64,000 bases of DNA from Streptomyces noursei ATCC 11455 (GTDB taxonomy: Bacteria > Actinomycetota > Actinomycetes > Streptomycetales > Streptomycetaceae). Where the stretch lies: contig NZ_CP011533.1 in assembly GCF_001704275.1 (NCBI RefSeq), positions 3,658,001 to 3,722,000 of the forward strand. Reading direction: 5' to 3'. Shown piece after piece: positions 21,783-35,825 of the stretch (the first letter of the stretch is position 1; the number at the start of each line of letters is the position of its first letter). Both the position numbers and the translations under genes were made by a program. The notes under the pieces are model-generated. The model searched no databases and had not been told where the DNA came from. It saw only the letters and a program-made list of their open reading frames with translations.

Positions 21783-22532
21783 TCACTTCACCGGCAGGTG
21801 GTAGGCCACCCGATGGCGCGCCGCGAGCGCGATCACGTCCGCCGTCTCGACCGGCCGGCCGCCCGCGAAGTACGTGCGCGAGATGACCAGCACCGCATGG
21901 CCCGGCACCCCGCCCAGCGCCATCGCCTCCTCGGCCAGGCCCGGCCGCGCCCCGACCTCCTCGACGACGTTGTCCACCACCACGTCGATGGCCGCCATCC
22001 GCTCGACCACCCCGCGCCCCGCCAGCGGGCCCTCCTCGGGCAGCATCACCGGCGTGCGCCCCGTGATCTCCAGCGGCTCCCAGGAGGTGGAGAGCATCGA
22101 CGGCTCCCCCTCCGCGCGGAACACGTACCGCGTGCGCATCACACGGGCGCCCACCGGGATCCGCAACCGGGCCGCCACCGCCGAACCGGCCGCCTCCTGC
22201 TCACTGTTGGACTCCCAGGTGCCCCGCACCCGCTCGTCCGTCTGCTCCTGGCGGAACGGCGTGCACCCCAGGGTGTGGTAGCCGCCGCGGGCGATCCGGC
22301 GCGGCACCGGATGCTCCCGCACATACGTCCCGGACCCGGACCGGCCCTCCACCAGACCCTCGGCCATCAGAACCTTGCGCGCCTCCAGCGCGACGGTGTC
22401 CGAGACGCCGTACTCCTCACGGATGCGGGCCTGGGAAGGGAGCCGGGTGTGCGGGGCCAGCACCCCGTCGACGATCTTCTGACGCAGGTCACCGGCGACG
22501 CGGAGGTACGCGGGCTGCTCACCGAAAGGCAC
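21783..22532 (-). CDS. GntR-family transcriptional regulator with UTRA domain (HutC subfamily)
   Basis: 249 residues from GTG at 22532 with a GGGAGGGG ribosome site. The N-terminal winged helix is typical (YLRVAGDLRQKIVDGVLAPH, LPSQARIREEYGVSDTVALEA). The C-terminal UTRA effector domain covers about residues 95-240. It should repress target promoters until a small ligand binds. Candidate targets are the adjacent permease or the divergently transcribed PIG-L deacetylase. No operator could be assigned. Confidence 0.93.
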   Translation of the reverse strand: MPFGEQPAYLRVAGDLRQKIVDGVLAPHTRLPSQARIREEYGVSDTVALEARKVLMAEGLVEGRSGSGTYVREHPVPRRIARGGYHTLGCTPFRQEQTDERVRGTWESNSEQEAAGSAVAARLRIPVGARVMRTRYVFRAEGEPSMLSTSWEPLEITGRTPVMLPEEGPLAGRGVVERMAAIDVVVDNVVEEVGARPGLAEEAMALGGVPGHAVLVISRTYFAGGRPVETADVIALAARHRVAYHLPVK

Positions 22533-23512: not shown

Positions 23513-23676
23513 CGCCTGTCCGATGGGTCAGGGTCGGCAAGGCCGTGGCGTCTGGTGCGGTGCATCGCAAGGTGCCGGAGCGGCTCGATAGCGGAGTTAT
23601 TGGGGCGTTTCGGCAACGCGGCGAGGTGCCGTACCAGACGCCACGGACCCGGCCACGACCCATCGGACAGCCCTAG
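23509..23676. mobile_element. MITE-like palindromic element flanked by CTAG
   Basis: About 160 bp with perfect 14-bp terminal inverted repeats (CTGTCCGATGGGTC at 23516-23529; its complement at 23657-23670). A second perfect inner pair of 13 bp lies at 23544-23556 and 23633-23645. Both ends abut CTAG (23509-23512 and 23673-23676), consistent with a 4-bp target duplication. There is no transposase gene; it is likely mobilised in trans by an IS with the same ends. The left CTAG supplies the stop codon of the PIG-L gene. Confidence 0.75.
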
Positions 23677-23859: not shown

Positions 23860-25536
23860 TCACAGATGGTGCTCGTCCATCAGGCGCATCAGGTTCCGCT
23901 TGCGTTTCTGGGCGGTACGCAGGGCGGTGACGTATCCGGTGAACTCCTCCGGCGATTCCAGGCGGCGGTGGCAGTCCCGGATGCTCAGGAGCAGGCTGAC
24001 GAGCTGTTCGTAGATCGCGTTGCCGGTCTGTGCGGTCAGCGGCTCTACCAGGCGTAGGTAGACGCCGAGCGCGTCGGTGGGGCGGGTGGCTCGGGCGTGG
24101 TCGGCGAGGGTGAGCCACTGTCGGTCATCGGCACCGGTCTCGGTGGCGGCCTGCCAGGCGGCGTCGACGTCCTTGTCGTCGAGCAGGGCGTCGACCAGGG
24201 CAGGACCACCACACCGGCCCGGTTGCCGCTGCTCCGCGTCGGCACGCAGGAGGGCCAGCGCGCCCTCGCGCTCGGCCGGCCAGCAGTCCGCGGCCCGGGC
24301 GGCGGCACGCAGCTGCTGGTACGTGAGCAGGGTGCGGCGGGCGCAGAAGTGATCGCGACGCAGGGCGACGGCCTCGGCGAGCCGCTCCGCCTGTGTGTAA
24401 CGGTCGCAGAGATGGTCGACGAGGGCGGTGTCGACCGCGGCGAGGTCCCTGGCCTCCCGGATGCCGCGCTCCGCCCAGCACAGGGCCTCGGCGGGGCGCC
24501 GGGCGGTGTCCAGCTCGCGAGCGATGACCAGATGCGTGTGCCCGTTCGGCGCGAGGTCGGCCGCATAGACGGCGATCACTGCGTCGACGTCGCCTCCCGC
24601 CTTGGCCAGACGCTCCATCAGATACTTCTCCGCCCAGCCACGGCGGTTGCCCTGCCACGCCTGGACCGCCAACTTCCGCAGGACGACCAGCCCCTCCGTG
24701 CCGAGCACGTCCGCGTAGTCGAGCGGATCGATGTCGGTGAGACCGTCGTCCGACTCGCCGAGCGCATGGCCGATCAGCCAGCGCGCGAGCTCCTCCGGAT
24801 CGGGGCGCGCCGCACGGCACGCGGCGAGGTGGGCGTCGGCGAGGCCGGCGCCCACCTCGCCGAGCCACCCGTCGGAGTCGTCGACGCTCTCCACCGCCCC
24901 GGCCAGCAGCTTCATCGCCTCCCGCACCAGGATGATCGCGTCGGCTGCCCGTCCGGAGCCGGTGAGCCCGCCGATCGCCGACACCGCCTGCCCGGCCTGG
25001 TCCGCATAGGCGCGGGCATCGGCGTACTCGACGTACCCGTACTGTGCGAACGGACCGATGTCGAGCAGTTCCCGGATGCGGGCCCGGACCGAGGCGATAT
25101 CCCCGCGGGCGCTCGCGGCACGCAGCTCCAGGCGGCGCCGCAACCGCCGGTCCTCGCCGACCTGTTCCCGCACCAGAGCGAGCAACTCGTCCTTCGACAG
25201 GGCACACAGCCATGTGTCGAGGTCCAGTGCCCGGTCCCGCGCCGCCTTCCGCTGCCGCGGCAGGCTCTCCGGCCGGGCGAGCACCGTCAGGCCGAGAGCG
25301 ACCAGGTGCTTGCAGAAATTGCCCTCCCGGCCATACGGGCAGTCGCACTCGCCGGACAGCCCGCCGGGCCCGTCCAGGAACAGCTCCACCTCATACCGCT
25401 CCGTGCCGTGGACGCTCGCGGTGACCCATCCCTCACCGACCTCGACCCCGGACACCGCATCCAGATACCCGCGCCCGCGCTCGAAGGAACGGGCACCAGC
25501 CAACATCTTGAGGTTCGCCTCGGTGAGGCCGCTCAT
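23860..25536 (-). CDS. SWIM zinc-finger domain protein
   Basis: 558 residues from ATG at 25536 (AAGGAGA just upstream). The SWIM motif (GECDCPYG, then NFCKHLVALGL) lies at about residues 58-80, with the CxCx(n)CxH zinc ligands intact. It is followed by a long, mostly helical region with TPR-like alternation of Ala/Leu and charged residues (LADAHLAACRAARPDPEELA). SWIM domains bind DNA or proteins; bacterial members often sit next to SNF2 helicases or metal-chelatase-like genes, but none is next to this one. Function unknown. Confidence 0.85.
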   Translation of the reverse strand: MSGLTEANLKMLAGARSFERGRGYLDAVSGVEVGEGWVTASVHGTERYEVELFLDGPGGLSGECDCPYGREGNFCKHLVALGLTVLARPESLPRQRKAARDRALDLDTWLCALSKDELLALVREQVGEDRRLRRRLELRAASARGDIASVRARIRELLDIGPFAQYGYVEYADARAYADQAGQAVSAIGGLTGSGRAADAIILVREAMKLLAGAVESVDDSDGWLGEVGAGLADAHLAACRAARPDPEELARWLIGHALGESDDGLTDIDPLDYADVLGTEGLVVLRKLAVQAWQGNRRGWAEKYLMERLAKAGGDVDAVIAVYAADLAPNGHTHLVIARELDTARRPAEALCWAERGIREARDLAAVDTALVDHLCDRYTQAERLAEAVALRRDHFCARRTLLTYQQLRAAARAADCWPAEREGALALLRADAEQRQPGRCGGPALVDALLDDKDVDAAWQAATETGADDRQWLTLADHARATRPTDALGVYLRLVEPLTAQTGNAIYEQLVSLLLSIRDCHRRLESPEEFTGYVTALRTAQKRKRNLMRLMDEHHL

Positions 25537-25614
25537 GGTCTCCTTCACCCTGCTCCTGGTCCTGTTCACTGCACGAGAAGAGCCCCCATGCCTCATGAGG
25601 CGCTTCCACGCTAC

Positions 25615-25902: not shown

Positions 25903-26031
25903 CACCGTCTACCGGGAGCAGACCGGTCACCCTGGGAGTCAGCGCATCGAGATCGGCTCCACTGTCTACGACGCCTGAACCATCCTGACGCCAGGTCAGA
26001 ACATCCGGTACCGATCCAGCGCGGGATCGAA

Positions 26032-26065
26032 GAAGGGGTTGGGCTCCCAGGAGCCCAACCCCTTC
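26032..26065. terminator. Perfect 16-bp hairpin at the left border of the ychF island
   Basis: GAAGGGGTTGGGCTCC and its complement enclose a CA loop and are followed by TCTC. It sits immediately left of the first ychF-tail copy, in the place where the ychF terminator hairpin stands at 34659-34686. It may therefore be the original chromosomal ychF terminator, displaced by integration. Confidence 0.75.
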
Positions 26066-26067
26066 TC

Positions 26068-26139
26068 ACCAGCATGTTCGCCACGCCGACAACGTGGTGC
26101 CATGCCATCCGCTCAGACGTTGCAGCGGGATTCCACCAC
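26068..26139 (-). repeat. att-like copy A of the ychF 3' end (left border of island)
   Basis: By hand, 58 of 72 positions match copy C at 34692-34763 without gaps. On the minus strand it still encodes VVESRCNV plus a stop, compared with VVEFRFNV plus a stop in real ychF. It is out of context here: the upstream coding sequence is a TetR remnant. I read it as the outer attachment site of a tandem integrated island. Confidence 0.75.
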
Positions 26140-26681
26140 AAGGCTCTGACCTGCGGAAATGCAGGCGGATCCCAGCACCGTCCCAGCACGGGAATCGCTG
26201 CAAAGTACAAGTGGGCTCAGGGCCGCCAACGCTACACAACCTGGTCGACCCACGAACTGAGATCCGACGGACTGCGCAAGTAGTGCGTCGGCGAGACGCA
26301 TGAGGTTGGCCAACGCGGCGGCGATGGGGACGGCCTCGGGGTCCAGCAGCGATTGATGGACGGCACCGCGCAACGCGCCGACGATCAGCATCGCGGTCGC
26401 GGGCACATCGACACCGGTCGCCCCTCCGCGGTCCCGCTCTCAATCCTGCGGCGCAGGTCGCGATGGAGGACGGCCATCTGGTCACGCAGGAACGGTGCAG
26501 GAAGCACCACCTCGAACGTGAGTACGTACAGCGCGCGCATCTGGTGCAGTTTGCGGCTCCAGCTGGTGCGCAGTTCATCGAAGAAGCGGTGCAGTCCTTC
26601 GGCTCCGGTCCGGTCGCCGACCGCCGGCGTCAGGGCTCGTTCGCGCGGCCCCGCGACCGCCGCGAAGGCTCGGCAGGCGCA
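26113..26681 (-). pseudogene. TetR-family regulator remnant (no HTH, frameshifted)
   Basis: The minus strand encodes a TetR C-terminal domain. One frame gives GAEGLHRFFDELRTSWSRKL and YVLTFEVVLPAPFLRDQM. The frame then shifts by one base at a G-run (26421-26424 on the plus strand) into VPATAMLIVGALRGAVHQ and LANLMRLADALLAQ. The N-terminal DNA-binding domain is absent, because a stop precedes residue 1 of the fragment. The 3' end runs through the element border and stops at the ychF-like VVESRCNV codons. It cannot make a working repressor. Confidence 0.75.
26171..26189 (+). repeat. Paired CCCAGCAC repeats, left end of element 1
   Basis: CCCAGCAC at 26171 and 26182, 11 bp apart, follow copy A and the string ACCTGCGGAAATGC. 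The same order recurs after copy B. They fit arm-type binding sites of a tyrosine recombinase. Confidence 0.6.
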
Positions 26682-26705
26682 TCACTGGCACGCCATTCTG
26701 TTGTC

Positions 26706-27178
26706 ATGACGCACCCTGGCCAGGACGACTCAGCAAGGATCACAGCGGTGACACGGCGCGATGTCTTCGACTTGCTACGCGCTACGGAGGGCGGCTGGTG
26801 GGACGCCTGGACGAAGTCGCCTTCCTGGGCGGCCTGTACGACCTGGACGCCCTCCCATCAACCGACTCGCGCCACCCGACCGCCCGCACCGACATCATCC
26901 AGCACCGGTTCAACAACTACGACTGCGAGGACGATTGGGTCTTCGAGGACCCGCGGTTTGGGCTTCTCGATGGCCCGGACGAGGTGCTGCTGGCATTCCT
27001 CGCACGGCTGGTACATCCCGAGGTACGCCCCGACGCCGACGAGGCGGCCAGGCGCGTCGATGAGCTGAACCGGCTTCTGGCAGCGGATGGCTGGGCGCTG
27101 CGCCCTCGAGACTTCGTGTCCGGGCGGCCCGTCTATGCACCGCTTCCAGAGAGCGCCGTCACTCCGACGGCCGCCTGA
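26706..27178 (+). pseudogene. AbiJ_NTD3-like abortive-infection gene, frameshifted and truncated
   Basis: ATG at 26706 opens MTHPGQDDSARITAV and reaches RRDVFDLLRATEGGWW. One G is missing in the run at 26800-26802. The next frame then reads GRLDEVAFLGGLYDLDALPS, followed by DIIQHRFNNYDCEDDWVFED and LARLVHPEVRP to the stop at 27178. This pattern (short helix, FLxxLYDLDALPSTDSR, QHRxNNxDxEDDWVF, HPxVRPD) is what I recall for the N-terminal domain of AbiJ-type abortive-infection proteins. The usual C-terminal effector half is missing. Either a decayed defence gene, an intact NTD-only gene starting at GTG 26798, or a sequencing error in the G-run. Confidence 0.65.
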
Positions 27179-27396
27179 CCGAATACATCACAGCAGTACG
27201 CGACCACACCACATCACTCCCGCCCGGGCAGGAGCGGACCGAGATCGAGGCGTGGCTCGCGTTCGCGGACGCGCACCTCCAAAACCTCACCGAATCGGTA
27301 TCAGCGCTGAAACTGCCCACGCCGCCGAAGCCAAGCGGCGACGACCGCAAGCCCTTCCTCGGTCACTGGAGCCCCTACGGGCCCCGCTCCTATTGA
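27163..27396 (+). pseudogene. C-terminal fragment of an unidentified gene
   Basis: The frame reads DGRLTEYITAVRDHTTSLPP, then EIEAWLAFADAHLQNLTESV and ends PFLGHWSPYGPRSY with stop at 27394. Codon bias is Streptomyces-like. No start codon or ribosome site exists upstream: a stop at 27061 and the overlapping AbiJ-like frame cut it off. It looks like the tail of a larger protein, brought here by rearrangement. Family not recognised. Confidence 0.5.
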
Positions 27397-27556
27397 GCCT
27401 TGGCTCCGCCCGCGACCTACGGAATTTCACCAGGCGGAGGAGCGGCAACATAGCGGCGGATCGCCGGATACCGAAGCTGGTGGTCCGCCGAATACTGGTA
27501 GCTCCACCGCCACTCACTGATCAACCGTCGAAAGGCAGAAGCCGGACCAGGGGAAA

Positions 27557-27970
27557 TCACACCGCCACGAGCCGGACCCGCTCGCCGCACAGCTTGGCCA
27601 TGTCGTCAATATCGGAAGTCAGCATGACCACGGGGCGGTGCTGTCGCAGTGCGGCCTCGGCGACGGCCGCATCGATCGCGTACTTGTGTCCGTCCAACCT
27701 GGCATTCATCAGCAACTTCGAGGCAGCCCTCGCCTCCTCGTCACCGACGGGGACGACTCGCAGCCCGGAAAGCACCCAGTTCAGGTGGGACTTGTTCGTA
27801 CGGGCGTGGACGGCTTCGATGATGGTGAGCGCACTGATCACGACCTCCATGCCGCGCGAGCGCGCCTCAGCGATCAGAGCCACCACCTGCTCGTCGTCGG
27901 CGAGTAGCTTCGAGAACCCCTCGCTGTCGAGGACCAGCGTCCCCTCGTGACTCAACCTGCGGCGGGCCAC
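27557..27970 (-). CDS. PIN-domain ribonuclease toxin (VapC-like)
   Basis: 137 residues from GTG at 27970 with an AGGAGGCC site. Acidic PIN residues are in place: Asp in VLDSEGFSKLL (about 15), Glu in LTIIEAVHARTNKSH (about 53), Asp in KYAIDAAVAEAAL (about 98) and Asp in VMLTSDIDDM (about 119). It should be an RNase active on tRNA or other RNA. The start overlaps the antitoxin gene by 19 bp, the usual antitoxin-first arrangement. It lies inside element 1 of the island and seems intact, unlike its neighbours. Confidence 0.85.
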   Translation of the reverse strand: MARRRLSHEGTLVLDSEGFSKLLADDEQVVALIAEARSRGMEVVISALTIIEAVHARTNKSHLNWVLSGLRVVPVGDEEARAASKLLMNARLDGHKYAIDAAVAEAALRQHRPVVMLTSDIDDMAKLCGERVRLVAV

Positions 27971-28236
27971 TCGGCCTCCTCGGCGAACACCTCGTCGAAG
28001 ACCTGCCGCGCCCGCTGACGAGCCGGCTCGGAGACCGGCCCCTTGCGGCTCTCGTAGTCCGCCAGGTACTCGTCCAGGACCTGCCCGCGCAGCTCACGCT
28101 CGACCGCCTCGGCGATGAATGCGGAGAACTCCCGCTTGCCCACCCGCGCCCGGATCGCCTCCGCAGTCCCCTCCGGCAGCGACAGACTCACCCGCGTAGC
28201 CGGGCCTTCCCCGATGCTGTACGTCGTCTCAGCCAT
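27952..28236 (-). CDS. Antitoxin of the PIN toxin (ribbon-helix-helix-like)
   Basis: 94 residues from ATG at 28236 (GGGGGC site just upstream); the longer frame to 28317 lacks one. The N-terminal part (ATRVSLSLPEGTAEAIRARV) fits a ribbon-helix-helix DNA-binding domain. The C-terminal part is an acidic helix (YLADYESRKGPVSEPARQR), the typical toxin-neutralising tail. Expected to bind its own promoter and the PIN toxin. No clear palindrome was found just upstream. Confidence 0.8.
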   Translation of the reverse strand: MAETTYSIGEGPATRVSLSLPEGTAEAIRARVGKREFSAFIAEAVERELRGQVLDEYLADYESRKGPVSEPARQRARQVFDEVFAEEAEWPAAG

Positions 28237-28319
28237 GCCCCCGATTGTGTCAAACGAGTAGGAAAAGTGCCACGTCCGCACTACCTTCACAGCTTGGTCA
28301 GCGCCCTGCTCGCACAAAT

Positions 28320-28428
28320 CCCAGCACGGGCACCCTCATCCCATCCCAGCGCGATCCCAGCACGGTAGGGATGAGCAGGGGCGAGGACAGGTGACGAGGG
28401 GTCAGCTATCCCAGCACCATCCCAGCAC
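28320..28428 (+). repeat. CCCAGCAC repeat cluster, right end of element 1
   Basis: Copies at 28320, 28356, 28410 and 28421, plus the variant CCCAGCGC at 28345. Two pairs are spaced exactly 11 bp (28345/28356 and 28410/28421). The last pair continues CGGGAAA, the same wording as the repeats left of copy C. No gene lies between 28237 and 28472; this stretch is the element end. Confidence 0.6.
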
Positions 28429-28472
28429 GGGAAAAAACTAAGGGCCGACCCCGAAGAGCCGGACCCTCTCTG

Positions 28473-28542
28473 ACCTGCACATTTGCCAGATCAGCGACGG
28501 GGTGATAAGTCAGCCGCTACACGTTGAACCGGAACATTTTGC
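28473..28542 (-). repeat. att-like copy B of the ychF 3' end (between the two elements)
   Basis: It matches copy C over most positions with one single-base gap. On the minus strand it still encodes KMFRFNV plus a stop. It is flanked on the left by repeats like those left of copy C, and on the right by GAGCTCCCACCTGCGGAAAC, which resembles the flank right of copy A. It thus reads as the shared attachment site between two tandem elements. Confidence 0.7.
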
Positions 28543-28585
28543 GCAGAGCTCCCACCTGCGGAAACGCCGTTTTGGACGGGGTCAT

Positions 28586-28623
28586 CCCAGCACAATCCCA
28601 GCACGGGAGATCCATCCCAGCAC
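28586..28623 (+). repeat. CCCAGCAC repeats, left end of element 2
   Basis: Copies at 28586 and 28597 (11 bp apart) and a third at 28616. The arrangement to the right of copy B mirrors that to the right of copy A. Confidence 0.6.
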
Positions 28624-28651
28624 CAGCGGACGCAGACGCCCCTTGGCGCCA

Positions 28652-28715
28652 CAACGAGGCTTGTGTAGCCGTGGCCCCTCACCCCAAGCCGGCTTCGCTC
28701 GTCCAAGCCTCGTTG
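28652..28715. terminator. 12-bp inverted repeat downstream of the ATPase gene
   Basis: CAACGAGGCTTG (28652-28663) and CAAGCCTCGTTG (28704-28715) pair perfectly across a 40-base loop, about 40 bp beyond the ATPase stop. It could be a terminator, though the loop is long, or a protein or recombinase site. Confidence 0.4.
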
Positions 28716-28756
28716 AGACGGACCGTGACGCCCGGACCGCCTTCCGGCGTACTGCG

Positions 28757-30685
28757 TCACCCAGAGGAGTCAGAGTCTCCACCGCCGGCCGCCCCACCCA
28801 GCACCCGCTCAAGCCTGCGCGCCTCGTCGGCCAAGCGCAGAGTGACAGCCTCGCTGCCATAACCCTCGTGGGCGAGATGGCCGGCGAGTGTCTCCAGGAG
28901 GGTGATGCCGGAGCGCACCCGCGCCTCGACACCTGCGCCCTCCCCTGCGAGGGCATGGTCCTGCCCGCGCAGTGCCGACAGAGCGAGTCTCGTTTCCTCG
29001 CGTACATCGACCGGCAGTCCCGATCGCCCAAGGTGGCGGAGTAGACGCTGCATCACGCGATCTACCTCCTCAAGGAGGCGCACATCGCGATCAACGGTGA
29101 ACCCTGCGTCCGTCACGGCGATGTTACGCAGAAAGCTGGTGTGCGTGCCGCTCGGCAGCGGGGTCTGCAGGGCTAGGTCCGCCGCCGTCGATCTTGCCGT
29201 AGTGCCCTCCCTGCAGTTCAGTGCTTGGCGGAAACAGGGATGGACGTGGAGATCGTCCTCGTAGAGTTGGACGGGCAGCGATGTTGAACCCGCATACGCG
29301 ACGCTGTCGCCCCGCCGCACACCGAGGAAACCGACGGCGAAGAGGGCCGCCACCATGGCTTGTGCGGTGAGGTGTTCCGTGTAGGCGGAGTGCGCCTCGT
29401 GCAAGTTTGTGTGGATGGCCGAAAAGCGCTCGCCGAACTCCTCCCGGGAGACACGAGGTTCGCCGTTCTCGAACAAGGCGAAGACTTGGCGCAGAAACGG
29501 AAATCCGACGTTGTATTCCCTGGCAAGATCCTCCAGCTTCCACTGCGAGAAGCGCTTGGTCGCAGCCAGCACATCGGACTCGCGCACCGTGCTGTGCCCC
29601 CGTTCCCATGCGACGTCACGGCAGAGGGTGAGGAATTGGATGGCGTCGCGCGGGCGAGGCAGGCAGTGACGTTCAAGATAGTCAGCCGTCGGCTCGCCGC
29701 AGACGGAGCTGGGGAAGACATCGCCCCACAACTGCTCATGGCTGAGCTGTCGCCTCAAGGAAACAGAGGCTCGGGCGAGTGCCAAGCGACGCAGGGCCTC
29801 CGGGGTCCAGGTGATCTGCATCTCCTCACTGCGGAACTTGTCACCGTCCGCGAAGTTGAGGGTGTCGTAGATGTCGGAGCGGATGAACAGCACGCAGCGA
29901 GCCGACGTGGCATAGGTCCTTGCGAGGTGCTTGGAAGCCAGAAGCAGCCCAGTGACCAGGGCATGGCTGTCGGGGTCCGCCTCCCACACCAGTTCCAGCT
30001 GGTCGACAAGAATGAGCAGAGGCGGGTGCCCGTCAGTGGCACAGTCCAACACTCTTTGAGCCGCTAGGACGCCGGCCTCGAGCGCGTCGAGTTGGTGCAT
30101 CGCGCGGGCGCCCTCGGAGCCGAGCCCGGCTGTGCCGTCGCCAGTCGCCACACTGGCCTCGATCCCGAACATCTTCAGGGACAGTGTCGCCGACTGCAGG
30201 CGACTCGTGCCACGCCTGAGCCTGTCCGTGAGGCGTGCCTCGTGCTCCTCGCCGTTGATCCGCAGAAATTCGCGCAGCGCGCGGACCGGCGCGGGTTGCC
30301 GTAACGACCGGCTGTGCCGGGCGCGCGCATGGTCGACGACATACCGGGCGACCTGTACAGCGAACAGATAGCGCCAGATCAGCGACTTGGCGGTGTCCGA
30401 CGTGATGCCCTGAAGATCGAACCGGCGGATCTCATCGCCCGCAGCGCTGTCCGGCATGATCTCGGCCGTCGGACCGGGATACATGCCCCCGTGGGCGAGT
30501 TGAGCGCAGATGGCACTCTTACCCGAACCCTTTCTGCCAATGACCAGCGACTTACGCCCGTGGAGTGCCGCTTCATAGGCGAGCGTCCGCTGGAAGCCTT
30601 GCCTCAGCAGGCCATCGGCGAAGTCATGTTCGGCGTCATCACGCCCAAAGAAGAGATCACGTACGGGCTGGTGCACCTGATCCAC
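28757..30685 (-). CDS. P-loop ATPase resembling the Sll1717 family
   Basis: 642 residues from GTG at 30685 with a GGAGGAG site. The N-terminal FFGRDDAEHDF is followed by Walker A GRKGSGKS (50-57), Walker B LLILVDQLE (223-231) and a FIRSDIYDTL motif (267-276), an order I know from Sll1717-type P-loop ATPases. A helical region of about 350 residues follows, probably a sensor or effector. There are no membrane segments. It is transcribed divergently from a coiled-coil membrane protein and a kinase, 158 bp away, within element 2 of the island. Codon use is less biased than in core genes, which suggests transfer. Relatives are poorly characterised; a role in phage or plasmid conflict is inference. 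Confidence 0.8.
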   Translation of the reverse strand: MDQVHQPVRDLFFGRDDAEHDFADGLLRQGFQRTLAYEAALHGRKSLVIGRKGSGKSAICAQLAHGGMYPGPTAEIMPDSAAGDEIRRFDLQGITSDTAKSLIWRYLFAVQVARYVVDHARARHSRSLRQPAPVRALREFLRINGEEHEARLTDRLRRGTSRLQSATLSLKMFGIEASVATGDGTAGLGSEGARAMHQLDALEAGVLAAQRVLDCATDGHPPLLILVDQLELVWEADPDSHALVTGLLLASKHLARTYATSARCVLFIRSDIYDTLNFADGDKFRSEEMQITWTPEALRRLALARASVSLRRQLSHEQLWGDVFPSSVCGEPTADYLERHCLPRPRDAIQFLTLCRDVAWERGHSTVRESDVLAATKRFSQWKLEDLAREYNVGFPFLRQVFALFENGEPRVSREEFGERFSAIHTNLHEAHSAYTEHLTAQAMVAALFAVGFLGVRRGDSVAYAGSTSLPVQLYEDDLHVHPCFRQALNCREGTTARSTAADLALQTPLPSGTHTSFLRNIAVTDAGFTVDRDVRLLEEVDRVMQRLLRHLGRSGLPVDVREETRLALSALRGQDHALAGEGAGVEARVRSGITLLETLAGHLAHEGYGSEAVTLRLADEARRLERVLGGAAGGGDSDSSG

Positions 30686-30843
30686 GATGTCTGCGACTCC
30701 TCCTGTGCCGGTGGCTCCTTGACGGGTGCCGCGGCTGCCCCTGCGGTACGGATCCGCGCCGACAGCCCGCCCAGATTAACCGTTCATAAGCCCAGTGGCG
30801 CAGGCGTACGCATAATGAGCAAGACAGACGCGAGTCTTATGCG
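30686..30843. promoter_or_regulatory. Divergent promoter region with nested inverted repeats
   Basis: The 158-bp gap serves both arms of the module. CGCATAA (30809-30815) pairs with TTATGCG (30837-30843), and inside it AAGAC (30821-30825) pairs with GTCTT (30834-30838). The structure ends exactly at the start codon of the next gene. It may be an operator, or a hairpin over its translation start. CATAAT at 30811 could be a -10 box. Confidence 0.5.
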
Positions 30844-32712
30844 ATGCCGAGTGAGGAGCCTCGTCGACGGAGGCATCATCCAATTCCGGGGGACGACGTG
30901 GAAGAGTACGGGGACACGGAGGCGCCTCTCAATGAAGTCGCGGGAGCGTTACGCCGGCTGGACGGAGATGTCGACGCCCTGGGAACGCGGGTCGAAGCAG
31001 TGCAGGGCAATGTCACAGCGCTACGAGGCGAGCTGCGGACCATGGCCTCTGAACTCGGTGACGTCTCGCACACCATCGACCGGGTCGAAGGTTCCGTACG
31101 TCAGCTTGAGCATAAGTTAGTTGAGTTCACGGATCAGTACACCAGAGATCAGGTCCGGGCGCGTGCTGAGGCAGAGTTGGCCCGGCTGACGACTGAGTGG
31201 CACGCACGGTTCGAACAGCGCCGACAAACACGCGCCCTGGCTCACGGACTCGTCCACGCGCTGACGAAGGACGCTCTGGAGAAGGGCATGGTGGACAAAG
31301 ACCTGGTAGCCGCCTGCGCCCAGGAACGCATGCTCATGGACCGTGGATTCTGGCTCGGCCCGGCGGTGGTAGCTCTCGCGGCCCGCCATCTCGACAAAGA
31401 ACCACAGATGCACCGTGCCCGGGCTCAGGCGTACTCGATCGACCAGGCCCGTGCCAACCTCTTCTTCACCTTGACCTGTACACGCCTGGGCGAATTGGAC
31501 GAAGCCGCCCGCTGGATGGACCGCTATCTGCAGTCACTCGACCCCTACGCCTTGGACGAGGACTTCCACGTCGTACTCGACGCCGTCGCTTGCAACGAGC
31601 TGGGGGCACAAGCACATGCATACACCCGGCAGGCAATGCGGCAGTGGCTCAGCCGTCTTGAGCTGGCGCAGGCGACCACACTTGAGACTCAAGTCGCCCG
31701 TCACATGGGTGACTTGGGGAAGGCCCTGCCAACACAGCGATACCAGGAACTAGGCAGCTTGTGCACCGACGGTTGGGATGGCCTGCGCAGCGGCTGGGAG
31801 TGGGCGACCGTCCCGAAGGCCACGCTCGCCCATCTGCGCCGCGCCTTCCCCGGTGACCTAGACGACGGTCCGGCAGGACACGTCGACAGCGCTCTCGACG
31901 CGCTCATCGACCGACATGACACCGACGAGGCACAGCTCGCGTCACGCATCCGCTATCTCGAACTCGTCGTCGAGCACAGTGGTGACGAGAAGACAGCACG
32001 CCAGGAGCACACGGCACAGCGGAACGCCGCAAAGCCGGTGAACCTCCGGACACTGCTGGTGAACGCTGTCTTCATGCCGGAAGCCGTGCATCTTGGAGAG
32101 GAGGCACGCTTGTTGGCACTCCGTGCAGTGTGGCCCCACGTGCTGAACTCGTCCGAAGCCTACGTGCAACGCTCCCGGTCACTACTCCCCCGGCAGATCG
32201 ACGTCAGCTGGGGTGAGTGGAATCGCCCGCTTCCCGCAGACCCGACCGCGCCCGTCCCAGAACAGCAACTGGTCGACGAAGTGCGGGAGCTGATAGAGGA
32301 GCGCACCCATCAGAAGGTCGAATCCGTCCGGCTCAATCGGTTCCGGTTCCTCGCCGCTGCCGTGACGACCGTGGTGGGCGTGATCACGGCGTTCCTCCTT
32401 CCACAAGGCGTACCGCGGGTCATCGCCGCCACACTCGCAACCGCTGCCGTCATTCTGACGATCGCCGAGTGGCGGCGAGTCCCGGCACGCAAGCAGGAAC
32501 TCAGCCGTGAAGGCCGAGACAGTGCCCAGACCGCCGCCGCCGTCCTGAACCAGGCGTTGACCCAACGCGTCACGTTCTTCACTACATGGCATGAGAACCT
32601 CGATGTTGCTCCCCAACTGGCAACCTGGGCGAACCAGGCGTGGCGGCGCGAGGCGGGTGTGCTCGAAGGAGGCACTCGGGACGCAAGCAGCGACAACAGG
32701 GAGAACGAATGA
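30844..32712 (+). CDS. Coiled-coil protein with two C-terminal membrane helices, unknown function
   Basis: 622 residues from ATG at 30844; a GTG at 30898 preceded by GGGGGA is an equally good start. Residues about 25-115 are a heptad-rich coiled coil (RLDGDVDALGTRVEAVQGNV and a second run). A large helical region of about 350 residues follows, with TPR-like runs (LGELDEAARWMDRYLQSLDP). Two adjacent membrane spans lie near residues 500-540 (FLAAAVTTVVGVITAFLL and VIAATLATAAVILTI). The final 80 residues are cytoplasmic. It overlaps the kinase gene by 4 bp. I do not recognise the family. The layout suits a membrane-anchored sensor or effector coupled to the kinase. Confidence 0.75.
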   Translation: MPSEEPRRRRHHPIPGDDVEEYGDTEAPLNEVAGALRRLDGDVDALGTRVEAVQGNVTALRGELRTMASELGDVSHTIDRVEGSVRQLEHKLVEFTDQYTRDQVRARAEAELARLTTEWHARFEQRRQTRALAHGLVHALTKDALEKGMVDKDLVAACAQERMLMDRGFWLGPAVVALAARHLDKEPQMHRARAQAYSIDQARANLFFTLTCTRLGELDEAARWMDRYLQSLDPYALDEDFHVVLDAVACNELGAQAHAYTRQAMRQWLSRLELAQATTLETQVARHMGDLGKALPTQRYQELGSLCTDGWDGLRSGWEWATVPKATLAHLRRAFPGDLDDGPAGHVDSALDALIDRHDTDEAQLASRIRYLELVVEHSGDEKTARQEHTAQRNAAKPVNLRTLLVNAVFMPEAVHLGEEARLLALRAVWPHVLNSSEAYVQRSRSLLPRQIDVSWGEWNRPLPADPTAPVPEQQLVDEVRELIEERTHQKVESVRLNRFRFLAAAVTTVVGVITAFLLPQGVPRVIAATLATAAVILTIAEWRRVPARKQELSREGRDSAQTAAAVLNQALTQRVTFFTTWHENLDVAPQLATWANQAWRREAGVLEGGTRDASSDNRENE

Positions 32713-33884
32713 TGATGGGTCCCCGCGACGGCCGCCGCTTCGTCGGTCTGGGCGGCCGCTTCGAACTGGTCGACCACATGGGTAGCGGCGGATTCGGAGA
32801 CGTTTGGCGTGCCCGCGACGCGATGCTCGGCCGCGAAGTAGCTCTGAAATTCCTCGCCTTAGACAGGCTGGCGGGGCCGCGGCCGGATCCGGAGCGGGTC
32901 CGGCAAATACGTGAGCGGTTCGCGCGCGAGAGCCTGATCGCTGCCAAGGTCGACAGCCCGTATGTCGCCAGCATTTACGACTGTGACATGGACAACGAGA
33001 CGCCATTCCTCGTCATGGAATACGTGGACGGTGAGCCGCTGAACGCCCATGTGGGCATCACCCCCCTACCACTGGCACGTACCTGTCGTTGGAGCGGTCA
33101 GATTGCCCAGGGCCTCGCCGCCGCTCACGACCAGAGCGTCGTCCACCGTGACATCAAACCCGGCAATGTGCTCGTGCGGGAGGCCGACAGCGACGTACGC
33201 CTCGTCGACTTCGGTCTGTCCCGTTTCGTCGACGCTACCGAGACACGCAGCGCGGCTGGCACACCGCTGTACATGTCACCCGAGCGGTGCCGCGCCGAGC
33301 CTGGCGACGAACGCAGCGACCTGTACTCACTCGGCTGCGTGATGTACGAAATGGTCACTGGATGGCCACCATTCGGCGACACCCGCGCCGATCCCGTCGC
33401 TCTCACCCAAGCCCACCAGAACAAGGCGCCCACGCCGCCGCGAGCGCGGGTGGCAGGAGTGCCACCGACACTCGAAAAACTGATCATGACACTACTCGCC
33501 AAGGATCCCCAGCACCGGCCCCGCAACGCGCGCGCGGTCGTCCATGCGATCAAGGAGATCGAACAGGACCTCGACGCTTCCGGAGCAGAGCAACGTGCTC
33601 ACGGCCCCGCACCGGGCTCGGACGCGTCCGGCAACGGCTTTGCGGATCAACTCAGCGCTGCCGAACTCACCGTACGGCGGCTTATCTGGAAGCACGGCCA
33701 AGACCATGCTCTGGTCATCACAGCGCGCATGGAACTTGCCGACCTCACCGGGCATAGCGGTGACGTGCGCGGAGCCGCCGAACTGTACGACCGTCTCGGT
33801 CAGGACTGCAGCACCTGGTTCGGTCCGGGGCACAGTCGCACGCTCGACGCCTTTGAAGGTATGGCGCGGTGGGTCAGCGCTTAA
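32709..33884 (+). CDS. Serine/threonine protein kinase with C-terminal TPR-like segment
   Basis: 391 residues from ATG at 32709 (GGGAGA site), overlapping the previous stop as ATGA. The Hanks-type kinase is complete: glycine loop GSGGFGDV (25-32), Lys47 in VALKFL, catalytic HRDIKPGN (146-153), DFG (167-169) and SPE (190-192). After about residue 290 comes a linker and a TPR-like segment (ARMELADLTGHSGDVRGAAE, then YDRLGQD). There is no transmembrane helix or PASTA domain, unlike housekeeping kinases, so it is soluble. It probably phosphorylates its membrane partner or the divergent ATPase. Resemblance to known phage-defence kinases is only general. Confidence 0.93.
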   Translation: MMMGPRDGRRFVGLGGRFELVDHMGSGGFGDVWRARDAMLGREVALKFLALDRLAGPRPDPERVRQIRERFARESLIAAKVDSPYVASIYDCDMDNETPFLVMEYVDGEPLNAHVGITPLPLARTCRWSGQIAQGLAAAHDQSVVHRDIKPGNVLVREADSDVRLVDFGLSRFVDATETRSAAGTPLYMSPERCRAEPGDERSDLYSLGCVMYEMVTGWPPFGDTRADPVALTQAHQNKAPTPPRARVAGVPPTLEKLIMTLLAKDPQHRPRNARAVVHAIKEIEQDLDASGAEQRAHGPAPGSDASGNGFADQLSAAELTVRRLIWKHGQDHALVITARMELADLTGHSGDVRGAAELYDRLGQDCSTWFGPGHSRTLDAFEGMARWVSA

Positions 33885-34005
33885 GGCGAGGAAACCCAGA
33901 GCACTGCCCTCGGATCCCGACCTTCCCCTCCGGAAACCTCCCCCTCGATCGCCCCCAGCATCAATCCGGCACGAGAGCGGCAACCCAGCACGGATGGCCC
34001 CGCGG

Positions 34006-34260
34006 TCAGTAGTGATAGCGCGCCGCGAGGATCACGATCTCTTTGTCCGTGACCAGGTATACGAGGCGGTGTTCGTCGTCGATCCGCCTCGACCATGCCC
34101 CAGGCAAGTGGTACTTGAGTGGCTCGGGCTTGCCGATCCCCGTGAAGGGATCGCGCTTGACGTCCTCGATGAGCTTGTTGATCCGAGCGAGCATCTTGCG
34201 GTCGTTCTTGAGCCAGGACGTGTAGTCCTCCCAGCCCTGATCCTCGAAGACAAGCCTCAC
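34006..34260 (-). CDS. yoeB: YoeB-family mRNA interferase toxin
   Basis: 84 residues, the exact length of E. coli YoeB, and like it ending in His83-Tyr84, part of the catalytic site. The RelE-type fold is clear: [20 protein letters not shown], then [20 protein letters not shown]. It cleaves mRNA on the ribosome. The start overlaps the antitoxin gene by 4 bp (order yefM-yoeB). It lies near the right end of element 2 and is probably a stabiliser of the element. Confidence 0.93.
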
Positions 34261-34538
34261 GCAGCACCCTCAGCAGGATCCGTAGCATCCGGATCGATCA
34301 GCTCGCGCTCCGAGACGTTGATGTCGCCCAGGGCGTTCTCGTACGCCTTGAGCAGTCGCCGCGCGTTCGCAGGGGAACGCAGCAGGTACGAGCCCTCGCG
34401 CAGTGCCGCGTAATCCTCGGCCGAGACGAGCACAGCATTGCCGTGCTTGGAGACAATCTCGATGGCCTCGTGATCGTCATTGACCTTCTTGATCAGTGGA
34501 AAGAGAGCCTTGCGGGCTTCGCTCGCAGTTATCGACAT
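34257..34538 (-). CDS. yefM: YefM/Phd-family antitoxin
   Basis: 93 residues from ATG at 34538 (AGGGGGT site), beginning [20 protein letters not shown], the canonical YefM/Phd start. The second half ([20 protein letters not shown]) wraps the toxin in relatives. It should neutralise YoeB and repress the operon through the palindrome just upstream at 34558-34583. Confidence 0.93.
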
Positions 34539-34557
34539 GAACTGACCCCCTACCTCG

Positions 34558-34583
34558 AGTGGTACTGAATAACGTACCACTCA
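34558..34583. promoter_or_regulatory. Palindromic operator of the yefM-yoeB operon
   Basis: GAGTGGTAC and its perfect complement GTACCACTC enclose eight A/T-rich bases (TGAATAAC), 20 bp before yefM. YefM repressors of E. coli bind palindromes with a TGTACA core; the GTAC here fits that family. It probably overlaps the promoter. Confidence 0.7.
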
Positions 34584-34627
34584 CGGCCACCTCAAGCGAA
34601 GTCAATAAGTGACGATCCGTCATGAAA

Positions 34628-34646
34628 CCCAGCACCATCCCAGCAC
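34628..34646 (+). repeat. Paired CCCAGCAC repeats, right end of element 2
   Basis: CCCAGCAC at 34628 and 34639, again 11 bp apart and followed by GGGAAA, as at 28410/28421. A lone copy lies at 33984. Confidence 0.6.
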
Positions 34647-34658
34647 GGGAAACAGCAG

Positions 34659-34686
34659 GGGGTCGACTCCTTGAAGAGTCGACCCC
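34659..34686. terminator. Hairpin downstream of ychF
   Basis: GGGGTCGACTC and its perfect complement with a six-base loop (34659-34669 and 34676-34686). On the plus strand it is followed by GTTTTAC. It ends ychF on the minus strand and/or the island on the plus strand. An imperfect counterpart precedes copy B. Confidence 0.75.
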
Positions 34687-34691
34687 GTTTT

Positions 34692-34763
34692 ACCTGCATG
34701 TTTGCCAGGTCGCCAACGTGGTGTTATTTCATCCGCTCACACATTGAAGCGGAACTCCACCAC
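34692..34763 (-). repeat. att-like copy C: the real 3' end of ychF plus downstream flank
   Basis: This copy contains the last codons of ychF (VVEFRFNV and stop) and 45 bp beyond. The conserved part spans both coding and non-coding sequence, as expected when an integrative element carries a copy of a gene's 3' end to keep the target gene intact. Confidence 0.7.
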
Positions 34764-35825
34764 GTCCCCGTCCTGCATGATGTATTCCTTGCCCTCCATG
34801 CGGGCCTTGCCGGCGGAGCGGGCTTCGGCGACGGAGCCGGTCTCGACCAGGTCGGCGAAGGAGACGACCTCGGCCTTGATGAAGCCCTTCTGGAAGTCGG
34901 TGTGGATGACTCCGGCGGCCTCGGGGGCGGTGGCGCCCTTCTTGATCGTCCAGGCGCGGCTCTCCTTGGGACCGGCGGTCAGGTACGTCTGCAGCCCCAG
35001 GGTGTCGAAGCCGACGCGGGCGAGGGTGGCCAGGCCGGGCTCCTCCTGGCCGACGGACTGCAGGAGTTCCAGGGCCTCCTCGTCGTCCAGCTCGGCGAGG
35101 TCGGCCTCCAGCTTGGCGTTGAGGAAGATCGCCTCGGCGGGGGCGACCAGGGCCCGCTGCTCGTTCTTGAAGTCCTCGTCGGTGAGCTCTTCCTCGTCGA
35201 CGTTGAAGACGTAGAGGAAGGGCTTGGTGGTGAGGAGGTGCAGGTCGTGCAGCAGCTCGGTCTTCTCCGTGCCCTGGACGTAGCCGGCGGCGAAGAGGGT
35301 GCGGCCCTCCTCCAGGATGGCCTTGACCTCCTCGACGGCCTTGACCTTGGGGGCCACGTCCTTCTTGATCCGCGACTCCTTCTGGAGGCGCGGCAGCACC
35401 TTCTCGATGGTCTGGAGGTCGGCGAGGATCAGCTCGGTGTTGATGGTCTCGATGTCGCTCTTGGGCGAGACCTTGCCGTCGACGTGGACGACGTTCTCGT
35501 CCTTGAAGGCGCGGATGACCTGGCAGATCGCGTCGGACTCGCGGATGTTGGCGAGGAACTTGTTGCCCAGGCCCTCGCCCTCGGAGGCGCCCCGGACGAT
35601 GCCGGCGATGTCGACGAAGTCGACGGTGGCGGGCAGCACCCGCGCGGAGCCGAAGATCTCGGCGAGCTTGGTGAGGCGGGCATCGGGGACGCCGACCACG
35701 CCGACGTTCGGCTCGATGGTGGCGAACGGGTAGTTGGCCGCCAGCACGTCGTTCTTGGTCAGGGCGTTGAACAGGGTCGACTTGCCGACATTGGGCAGAC
35801 CGACGATTCCGATCGTGAGCGACAC
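34737..35825 (-). CDS. ychF: Redox-regulated ATPase/GTPase YchF (Obg family)
   Basis: 362 residues from GTG at 35825. The P-loop GLPNVGKST (9-17), the YchF-specific NxxE element in place of NKxD, an alpha-helical domain in the middle and a C-terminal TGS domain ending FRFNV are all present. YchF is a ribosome-associated, ATP-preferring P-loop protein of the OLA1 group. It is complete. Its 3' end is the apparent integration site of the neighbouring island, and the coding frame is preserved. It is divergent from the DUF6542 gene. Confidence 0.97.
   Translation of the reverse strand: MSLTIGIVGLPNVGKSTLFNALTKNDVLAANYPFATIEPNVGVVGVPDARLTKLAEIFGSARVLPATVDFVDIAGIVRGASEGEGLGNKFLANIRESDAICQVIRAFKDENVVHVDGKVSPKSDIETINTELILADLQTIEKVLPRLQKESRIKKDVAPKVKAVEEVKAILEEGRTLFAAGYVQGTEKTELLHDLHLLTTKPFLYVFNVDEEELTDEDFKNEQRALVAPAEAIFLNAKLEADLAELDDEEALELLQSVGQEEPGLATLARVGFDTLGLQTYLTAGPKESRAWTIKKGATAPEAAGVIHTDFQKGFIKAEVVSFADLVETGSVAEARSAGKARMEGKEYIMQDGDVVEFRFNV

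Follow-up and report, generated by a model that had tools for sequence, protein, structure and literature searches.

In a 64,000-nucleotide stretch of the Streptomyces noursei ATCC 11455 genome (contig NZ_CP011533.1, positions 3,658,001 to 3,722,000; hereafter the window, to which all positions refer), the gene ychF (34737..35825, minus strand; 362 aa; Pfam YchF-GTPase_C 1.3e-38) is followed by an island that reaches to about 23.52 kb and whose first junction lies within the gene itself, as the last ~5 codons fall inside a crossover core. Copies of the ychF end divide the island into cassette 1 (between copies C and B), cassette 2 (between B and A) and cassette 3 (left of A). Cassettes 1 and 2 are bounded by cores on both sides and cassette 3 has one recognisable core. 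Read from ychF, the order is core, an element-borne stop codon and hairpin, one or more arm motifs, a type II toxin–antitoxin module (in cassettes 1 and 2), defence-type cargo or its remnants, a right arm, and then the next core. The island is very probably an array of at least three recombinase-less integrative cassettes, inserted site-specifically at the 3′ end of ychF at a core of ~16 bp, GTTCCGSTTCAAYGTGT, which codes for the last YchF residues.

The three copies proposed in a preliminary description of this DNA, at 26068–26139 (A), 28473–28542 (B) and 34692–34763 (C, the real ychF end), were found at those positions, and alignment reproduced the hand count of 58 identities over 72 ungapped positions between A and C. 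A and B are identical in 45 of 74 aligned columns and B and C in 52 of 73, and the alignment scores of 44 (A–C), 17 (A–B) and 31 (B–C) compare with maxima of 12, 10 and 9 over 500 shuffles each. When a profile was made from nine cores, three of them A, B and C, it scored 61.5 bits at A (26055–26141), 81.6 bits at B (28456–28545) and 79.5 bits at C (34676–34764), with 8.2 bits as the next best score over 22.4–36 kb. The cores proper, all on the minus strand, lie at 26116..26131 (A, degenerate), 28520..28535 (B) and 34740..34755 (C, attL type, GTTCCGCTTCAATGTG, within the 3′ end of ychF). The DNA flanking ychF downstream, first taken to be part of the repeat, turned out to be element DNA: by eye, the part truly shared with ychF is ~16 bp and the remainder of the 72-bp similarity belongs to the elements. 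In other species, next to integrase genes, the element side equals ychF only over approximately TTCCGCTTCAACGTGT (by eye), and in relatives the stop after FNV is TGA, TAG or TAA, with DNA of several types beyond it (by eye). As only these ~16 bp are common to ychF and the rest is derived from the element, each insertion would rebuild the end of ychF, keeping its last codons and supplying a fresh stop codon and hairpin.

The cores are accompanied by arm motifs. The double motif ATCCCAGCACNATCCCAGCACGGGA flanks B on both sides and also lies right of A and left of C, with a degenerate form left of A; on the left of B it is present twice, 65 bp apart. With up to two mismatches, CCCAGCACNNTCCCAGCACGG was found at five places in the 9.8-Mb genome, all of them these island sites, while the reversed pattern was found at none. 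On the minus strand, the left end of cassette 1 (34626..34736) comprises a hairpin at ~34653–34690 and a double arm at 34626–34651, and its right end (28543..28625) an arm at 28584–28609. Cassette 2 begins with a hairpin and arms at 28408–28433 and 28343–28368 (left end, 28343..28519; relatives also have two arms ~65 bp apart) and ends with an arm at 26169–26194 (right end, 26140..26215). The left end of cassette 3 (25958..26115) has a hairpin and a degenerate arm at 26010–26029. The hairpin segments between core and left arm fold better than shuffled sequences at A (z −5.1) and C (z −3.0), and no better at B (z −0.63). The stretch 25958–26139 is 75% identical over 182 bp to the ychF-side attachment (att) end of a locus in a relative (L256), where a ParDE-like module follows (this label, like Uma2-like, TIR-like and PIN2 below, is an informal one assigned without a family search). 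A ParE remnant left of A, which had seemed likely by eye, was not found by protein comparison, and only the DNA similarity to the L256 end stands.

The same signatures recur in other species. Among 295 Streptomyces genomes, 44 contain the arm motif and 42 the strict core-plus-arm pattern, our own being counted in both and the controls (reversed for the arm motif) giving 0; in our own genome the strict pattern finds B and C only. Thirty arm-motif places were taken with ~1.5 kb on each side, giving loci of ~3 kb; 29 of them come from other genomes, and ychF lies at a nearly fixed distance in 16 of these 29. Comparison of Streptomyces genomes therefore supports the proposal, made in the preliminary description, of tandem accretion of integrase-less elements resembling cis-mobilisable elements (CIMEs) at the 3′ end of ychF. 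That description counted two elements joined end to end; the tandem joining stands and the number does not, as there are at least three cassettes and A is an inner junction. A is placed inside the island because the DUF6880 DNA past it is also found past integrase and core in two other loci (L206 and L095, 88–90% identity), and because homology to the closest backbone, that of a relative (G137, locus L258), ends at 23521, past an lmbE-like gene. The outer edge (23513..23530) is set accordingly and shows no recognisable core.

The island lacks a recombinase, as had been claimed from the open reading frames: compared with 65 related integrases, the region 23.4–34.76 kb gave no credible match and no remnant (best E 0.034, scattered). 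Among the window cassette proteins scanned, no transfer gene was recognised with Pfam, no TraB (FtsK/SpoIIIE) of the type found in actinomycete integrative and conjugative elements (AICEs) and no replication initiator with Pfam and NCBIfam, and no phage structural, packaging or capsid-interference gene with Pfam, NCBIfam and PADLOC (PHROGs covered the relatives' genes only). No Rfam family reached the gathering score in 22–37 kb, and there is no tRNA within the window.

An integrase family that matches this site is present in relatives. The preliminary description knew of no integrase that targets ychF, and searches of an open-access library showed none for Streptomyces in titles and abstracts; the integrases that it proposed to seek next to ychF in other strains do exist. 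We traced a tyrosine recombinase through a remnant in L040 and then through copies in L047. The ychF integrase of L086 matches Pfam Phage_integrase at 1.6e-14 and falls far below the integron integrase cutoff (53.5 versus 265 bits), and a search of 20 loci for an HxLRH-type integrase motif returned two false matches and nothing else. The family occurs in 36 of the 295 genomes at a threshold of E ≤ 1e-25, up to ten candidates having been scored in each. An integrase lies downstream of ychF, on the same strand and within 60 kb (2.1 to 55 kb), in 20 of the 29 genomes in which ychF was placed; it lies at 113 and 166 kb in two and on other contigs in five. A scan of named genomes gave 78 integrase loci, mostly from Streptomyces (S. 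scabiei, S. albospinus, S. lincolnensis and S. xanthochromogenes among them) with a few from Actinacidiphila, Streptantibioticus, Actinokineospora and others; these loci come from the best 80 of 87 relatives, down to ~32% identity, so that a shared site is not implied for all. A ychF-type core is found within 260 bp of the integrase stop in 41 of 97 distinct matches, among which a few genes are represented by two fragments. When 65 integrases are placed on a tree, the arm labels are jointly clustered (14 changes against a shuffled mean of 18.3, as low in 0/200), which rests on GCTGACTT (GACTT; 0/500 shuffles as low), GCTGGGAT (GGGAT) being weaker (29/500).

Two kinds of element carry these integrases. 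The first are prophages, such as those in G157 (terminase, portal, minor tail protein and primase) and G278 (endolysin and DnaB-like helicase). The second are small elements, in which the integrase lies mostly 2–20 kb from ychF together with a 60-aa helix-turn-helix protein, restriction-modification genes and, in some, an AAA_25 protein.

The ends of the cassettes are related to those of the integrase-bearing elements. The right end of cassette 1, at B, is 84–88% identical over 82–100 bp to DNA directly behind intact integrases in other loci (L200, L192, L210 and L234), and of the 17 distinct sites with such an end (that of the window counted) 12 are adjoined by an integrase or its remnant. 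At A, cassette 2 ends in another type, found at 22 sites (window included), none with an integrase in the stretch covered, which was 2.5 kb upstream, or 1.5 kb at two sites; a VapBC-like PIN2 module lies at 155–166 bp in nine of the 22, its PIN2 protein being 47% identical to the PIN protein of the window. The two types differ in integrase content (Fisher P 1.6e-6) and in PIN2 content (P 0.0025), with the caveat that related species do not provide wholly independent sites. Ends of the A type are 80–92% identical to that of the window beside differing neighbours. The resemblance of the right end of cassette 1 to integrase-linked DNA points to an origin from an integrase-bearing element, whereas the right-end type of cassette 2 is integrase-free at 22/22 sites, and cassette 2 therefore need not be an individually decayed element.

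At the left ends, 31 of 93 cores (≥30 bits) have a tested module protein within 1.3 kb, 28 of toxin–antitoxin type and three Uma2-like; at the other 62, none of the eleven tested module proteins occurs within that distance. The distance is nearly constant for each type, mostly 189–269 bp for VapB-like, mostly 138–141 bp for YefM and 106–129 bp for ParE-like proteins. Core subtype tracks module type (25 cores; identity within type 0.83 versus 0.73; as large in 0/2000 shuffles), which indicates that B and C have separate histories. Genes whose products begin MTALP[DN]WMRPPR (Uma2-like by eye) were also seen near att sites in L192, L200, L251 and L262.

We measured the distance from ychF to the orthologue of a GntR gene that lies at 21783–22532 in the window. 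In 46 genomes (our own and 45 of the 50 relatives searched) it ranges from 3.8 to 171 kb, with a median of 27.9 kb, and always extends from the 3′ side of ychF. The order and orientation of the two genes are constant in those 45 relatives; in the other five they lie on different contigs (four genomes) or 2.4 Mb apart (G010). The shortest interval (G018, 3.8 kb) has a core, weak at 27.8 bits, and next to it a gene of a type also found at other att sites. Very long distances were observed in G093, where the interval spans 171 kb, and in G248, where the integrase lies 166 kb from ychF. Two loci (L116 in G097 and L149 in G022) have a YchF terminus of ...GGTSGSGKK rather than ...EFRFNV, as if the last codons had been replaced by another element. 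In four further loci (L141, L142, L147 and L151, from G003, G016, G015 and G024, respectively) the DNA after ychF is of another kind, alike among the four, and may represent an additional element family using this site.

Cassette 1 carries, next to C, a YefM/Phd-type antitoxin gene (34257..34538, minus strand; Pfam PhdYeFM 2.1e-13 on the longer frame 34257–34580; NCBIfam YefM 3.9e-16, under its cutoff, and phd_fam 9.7e-11, over it) and an 84-aa Txe/YoeB-type toxin gene (34006..34260, minus strand; NCBIfam 1e-38, Pfam YoeB_toxin 9.2e-42). Its cargo comprises a Ser/Thr protein kinase gene (32709..33884, plus strand; Pfam Pkinase 3.5e-48 on the longer frame 32640–33884), which matches PADLOC PD-T4-6 at 7.5e-79 as well as many other kinase models, a partner gene for a 622-aa protein (30844..32712, plus strand) and a gene for a 642-aa P-loop ATPase of the Sll1717 family (28757..30685, minus strand; NCBIfam 1.1e-103, PADLOC PDC-M28C 3.6e-7). 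The 622-aa protein belongs to no recognised family, with no Pfam match and a single NCBIfam match far under cutoff. Its gene occurs in 15 of the 295 Streptomyces genomes (own included) and forms a conserved pair with the kinase, as a related kinase gene adjoins it at 10 of 11 other loci (L272–L282, ~1.5 kb covered on each side); a relative of the Sll1717-type ATPase is adjacent at two of these 11.

In cassette 2, next to B, a VapC-like PIN-domain toxin gene (27557..27970, minus strand; 137 aa; Pfam PIN 3.3e-4, just under cutoff, and NCBIfam TA_toxin_VapC 9.5e-5, also under cutoff) lies beside a gene for its antitoxin-like partner of 94 aa (27952..28236, minus strand), which matches no family in NCBIfam or further family searches. 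Relatives of the 94-aa protein are found beside the left att at 13 of the 93 cores, B included. The cargo consists of two remnants on the plus strand: an AbiJ_NTD3 gene with a broken frame and its C-terminal part gone (26748..27178; Pfam AbiJ_NTD3 7.6e-40; 96% identity over 123 residues to a 406-aa copy in L036), and the C-terminal 74 residues of a 463-aa cassette protein (27172..27393; 86% identity to the L044 protein, 3e-36). The 463-aa (or 458-aa) protein recurs beside VapBC-like modules in L044 (2825–4216), L045, L041 and L051, and has no Pfam or NCBIfam match. Cassette 3 carries a DUF6880 gene (23860..25596, minus strand; Pfam DUF6880 6.2e-8), which matches the PADLOC phage-defence candidate PDC-S62 at 6.2e-39.

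A set of 61 cargo proteins gives matches to 333 PADLOC families at 1e-10, mainly of type I restriction-modification; because these families overlap, 333 does not count systems. Four families are matched by 59 proteins taken outside the marked cassette stretches. The 61 were picked from 89 listed proteins and include those of L047 and L200, loci without a shown link to ychF. Judged by these family matches, the cargo would defend against phages. A recurrent cargo operon was also seen at the ychF site of three genomes (L055, L102 and L258), encoding a protein, TIR-like by eye, that contains MPDVFVNYRTGDEESAA or a near match to it, and proteins of ~661 and ~430–452 aa.

Three other explanations of the island can be weighed against site-specific insertion of cassettes. 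Three similar copies within 9 kb could in principle arise by simple local duplication of the ychF 3′ end, but we consider this most improbable. Over a 55-bp stretch, B is identical at 51 positions to the cores of L224, L048 and L036 and C at 49 to that of L264, and neither is among the other's best eight core matches, so that each has closer counterparts in other genomes than in the other copy; together with their separate module-linked subtypes, this leads us to reject duplication for B and C. A is only marginally nearer to outside cores (45/55 to L264 and L265, 43/55 to C). Duplication would also leave the arms, the integrases and the variable cargo unexplained. Movement of cassettes through homologous recombination at the conserved att ends, which span hundreds of bases with the toxin–antitoxin module, would need no recombinase, and is in keeping with ends and cores that are ~75–93% alike between genomes and with the constant ychF–GntR arrangement in 45/50 relatives. 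It fits poorly with the adjacency of different core subtypes in one array and with the occupation of the same site by integrases with matching right ends, and we regard it as unlikely.

A stronger competitor, which we treat as a possibility short of even, is that elements or prophages were inserted serially at ychF and each lost its integrase, leaving individually decayed remnants whose mobilisation in trans has ended. Integrase remnants are found where an intact gene would be expected, beside a core or right arm (L040, L047, L078, L102 and L104), the right end of cassette 1 is of the integrase-bearing type, and cassette 2 contains broken cargo; all of these suit decay. Against it stand the right-end type of cassette 2, with an integrase at 0/22 sites versus 12/17 for the other type, and the similarity that these ends retain beside differing neighbours, for which decay alone is insufficient.

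Several observations also weigh against an array of site-specifically inserted, mobilisable cassettes. An empty site, which the preliminary description expected in relatives, was not seen: the GntR marker revealed none among the 46 ychF–GntR intervals, and even the shortest retains its weak core. No excised circle, attP or pair of strains with and without the island was seen, the exact arm motif was not found in viral contigs, and the junction-B region had no match in plasmid or phage collections. Within the integrase family, the placement of ychF covers 29 of the 36 genomes (the other seven are all weaker matches), two of these 29 (G204 and G012) carry an integrase unlinked to ychF, and 56 of the 97 matches, many from more distant clades, show no core by the simple pattern used. 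The GCTGGAT (GGAT) arm label is not clustered on the integrase tree (141/500 shuffles as low) and 46 of the 65 full-length integrase rows have no arm by the pattern used, for which reasons we rejected arm type as a clean marker of integrase clade. Finally, the cargo genes of cassette 2 are broken, and the degenerate core at A and the coreless outermost end suggest that cassette 3 is probably immobile; it, and perhaps also A, is probably too decayed to move.

Under site-specific insertion of cassettes, a resident or incoming ychF tyrosine integrase with matching arm specificity would most likely act in trans on the cassette ends, a step that parallels the proposal made for CIMEs. A prophage or small integrative element whose arms match could bring in such an enzyme, which would both excise and integrate cassettes. 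The att-linked toxin–antitoxin modules may select against cassette loss, given what such modules do. As a tentative extension, which we hold with rather less than even confidence, the cassettes might behave like an integron system that lacks the integron itself: non-autonomous cassettes of one lineage, their ends conserved, would load interchangeable anti-phage operons at ychF and be moved in trans by the integrases of temperate phages and small elements sharing the site, many members having a toxin–antitoxin module at one or other end, in some at the position that the integrase occupies in autonomous elements.

The ychF–GntR interval is a hypervariable landing site in a genus that produces many medicines, and with its att grammar and integrase family known, cassettes can be counted in any genome. 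Shared ends, phage-type integrases acting in trans and att-tied toxin–antitoxin modules would offer a testable answer to how recombinase-less defence islands grow and persist. The ychF integrases, whose site lies in a conserved gene that would be rebuilt on insertion, may also be useful as new integration tools.

Sedentary chromosomal integrons are recombinase-less cassette arrays with one recombination site per cassette, many toxin–antitoxin modules and some defence genes. They differ from the ychF array in their attC hairpins and in an integrase owned by the array, while the ychF cassettes have double-stranded att sites with arms, span several kb and carry several genes. Streptococcus CIMEs of the ICESt1 family, named for its integrative and conjugative element (ICE), lack integration and transfer genes, keep attL and attR, and occur in tandem at one site (PMC5704250). 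The ychF cassettes are likewise att-bounded, integrase-less and tandem, but have another target gene and integrase family, and add toxin–antitoxin modules at near-constant distance at many att ends, defence-type cargo and one integrase-free right-end type. In Streptomyces, TR1 (a CIME) and TR2 (an ICE) are neighbours at aviX1 that share an internal att (PMC8369830), and differ in their site, virulence cargo and conjugative partner. Dehalococcoides islands stand in tandem at the conserved ssrA gene in large numbers, with and without integration modules (PMC3146451), but target a tmRNA gene, carry cargo including rdhA and use another integration module. Several integrative elements accrete at one tRNA-Arg site in Streptomyces AICEs (PMC9513070), a report that also counts 14 insertions in protein-coding genes; AICEs differ in their TraB, no such gene being recognised among the window cassette genes scanned, and in their tRNA target. 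The nearest described case is the satellite prophage of S. pneumoniae BM6001, in another phylum, which is ychF-adjacent as here but lies upstream, in an intergenic position, with a 26-bp att (PMC10383233). Set beside these systems, CIME accretion is already known, while ychF as its site, the ychF-associated integrase family and the lineage of integrase-less cassettes appear to be new.

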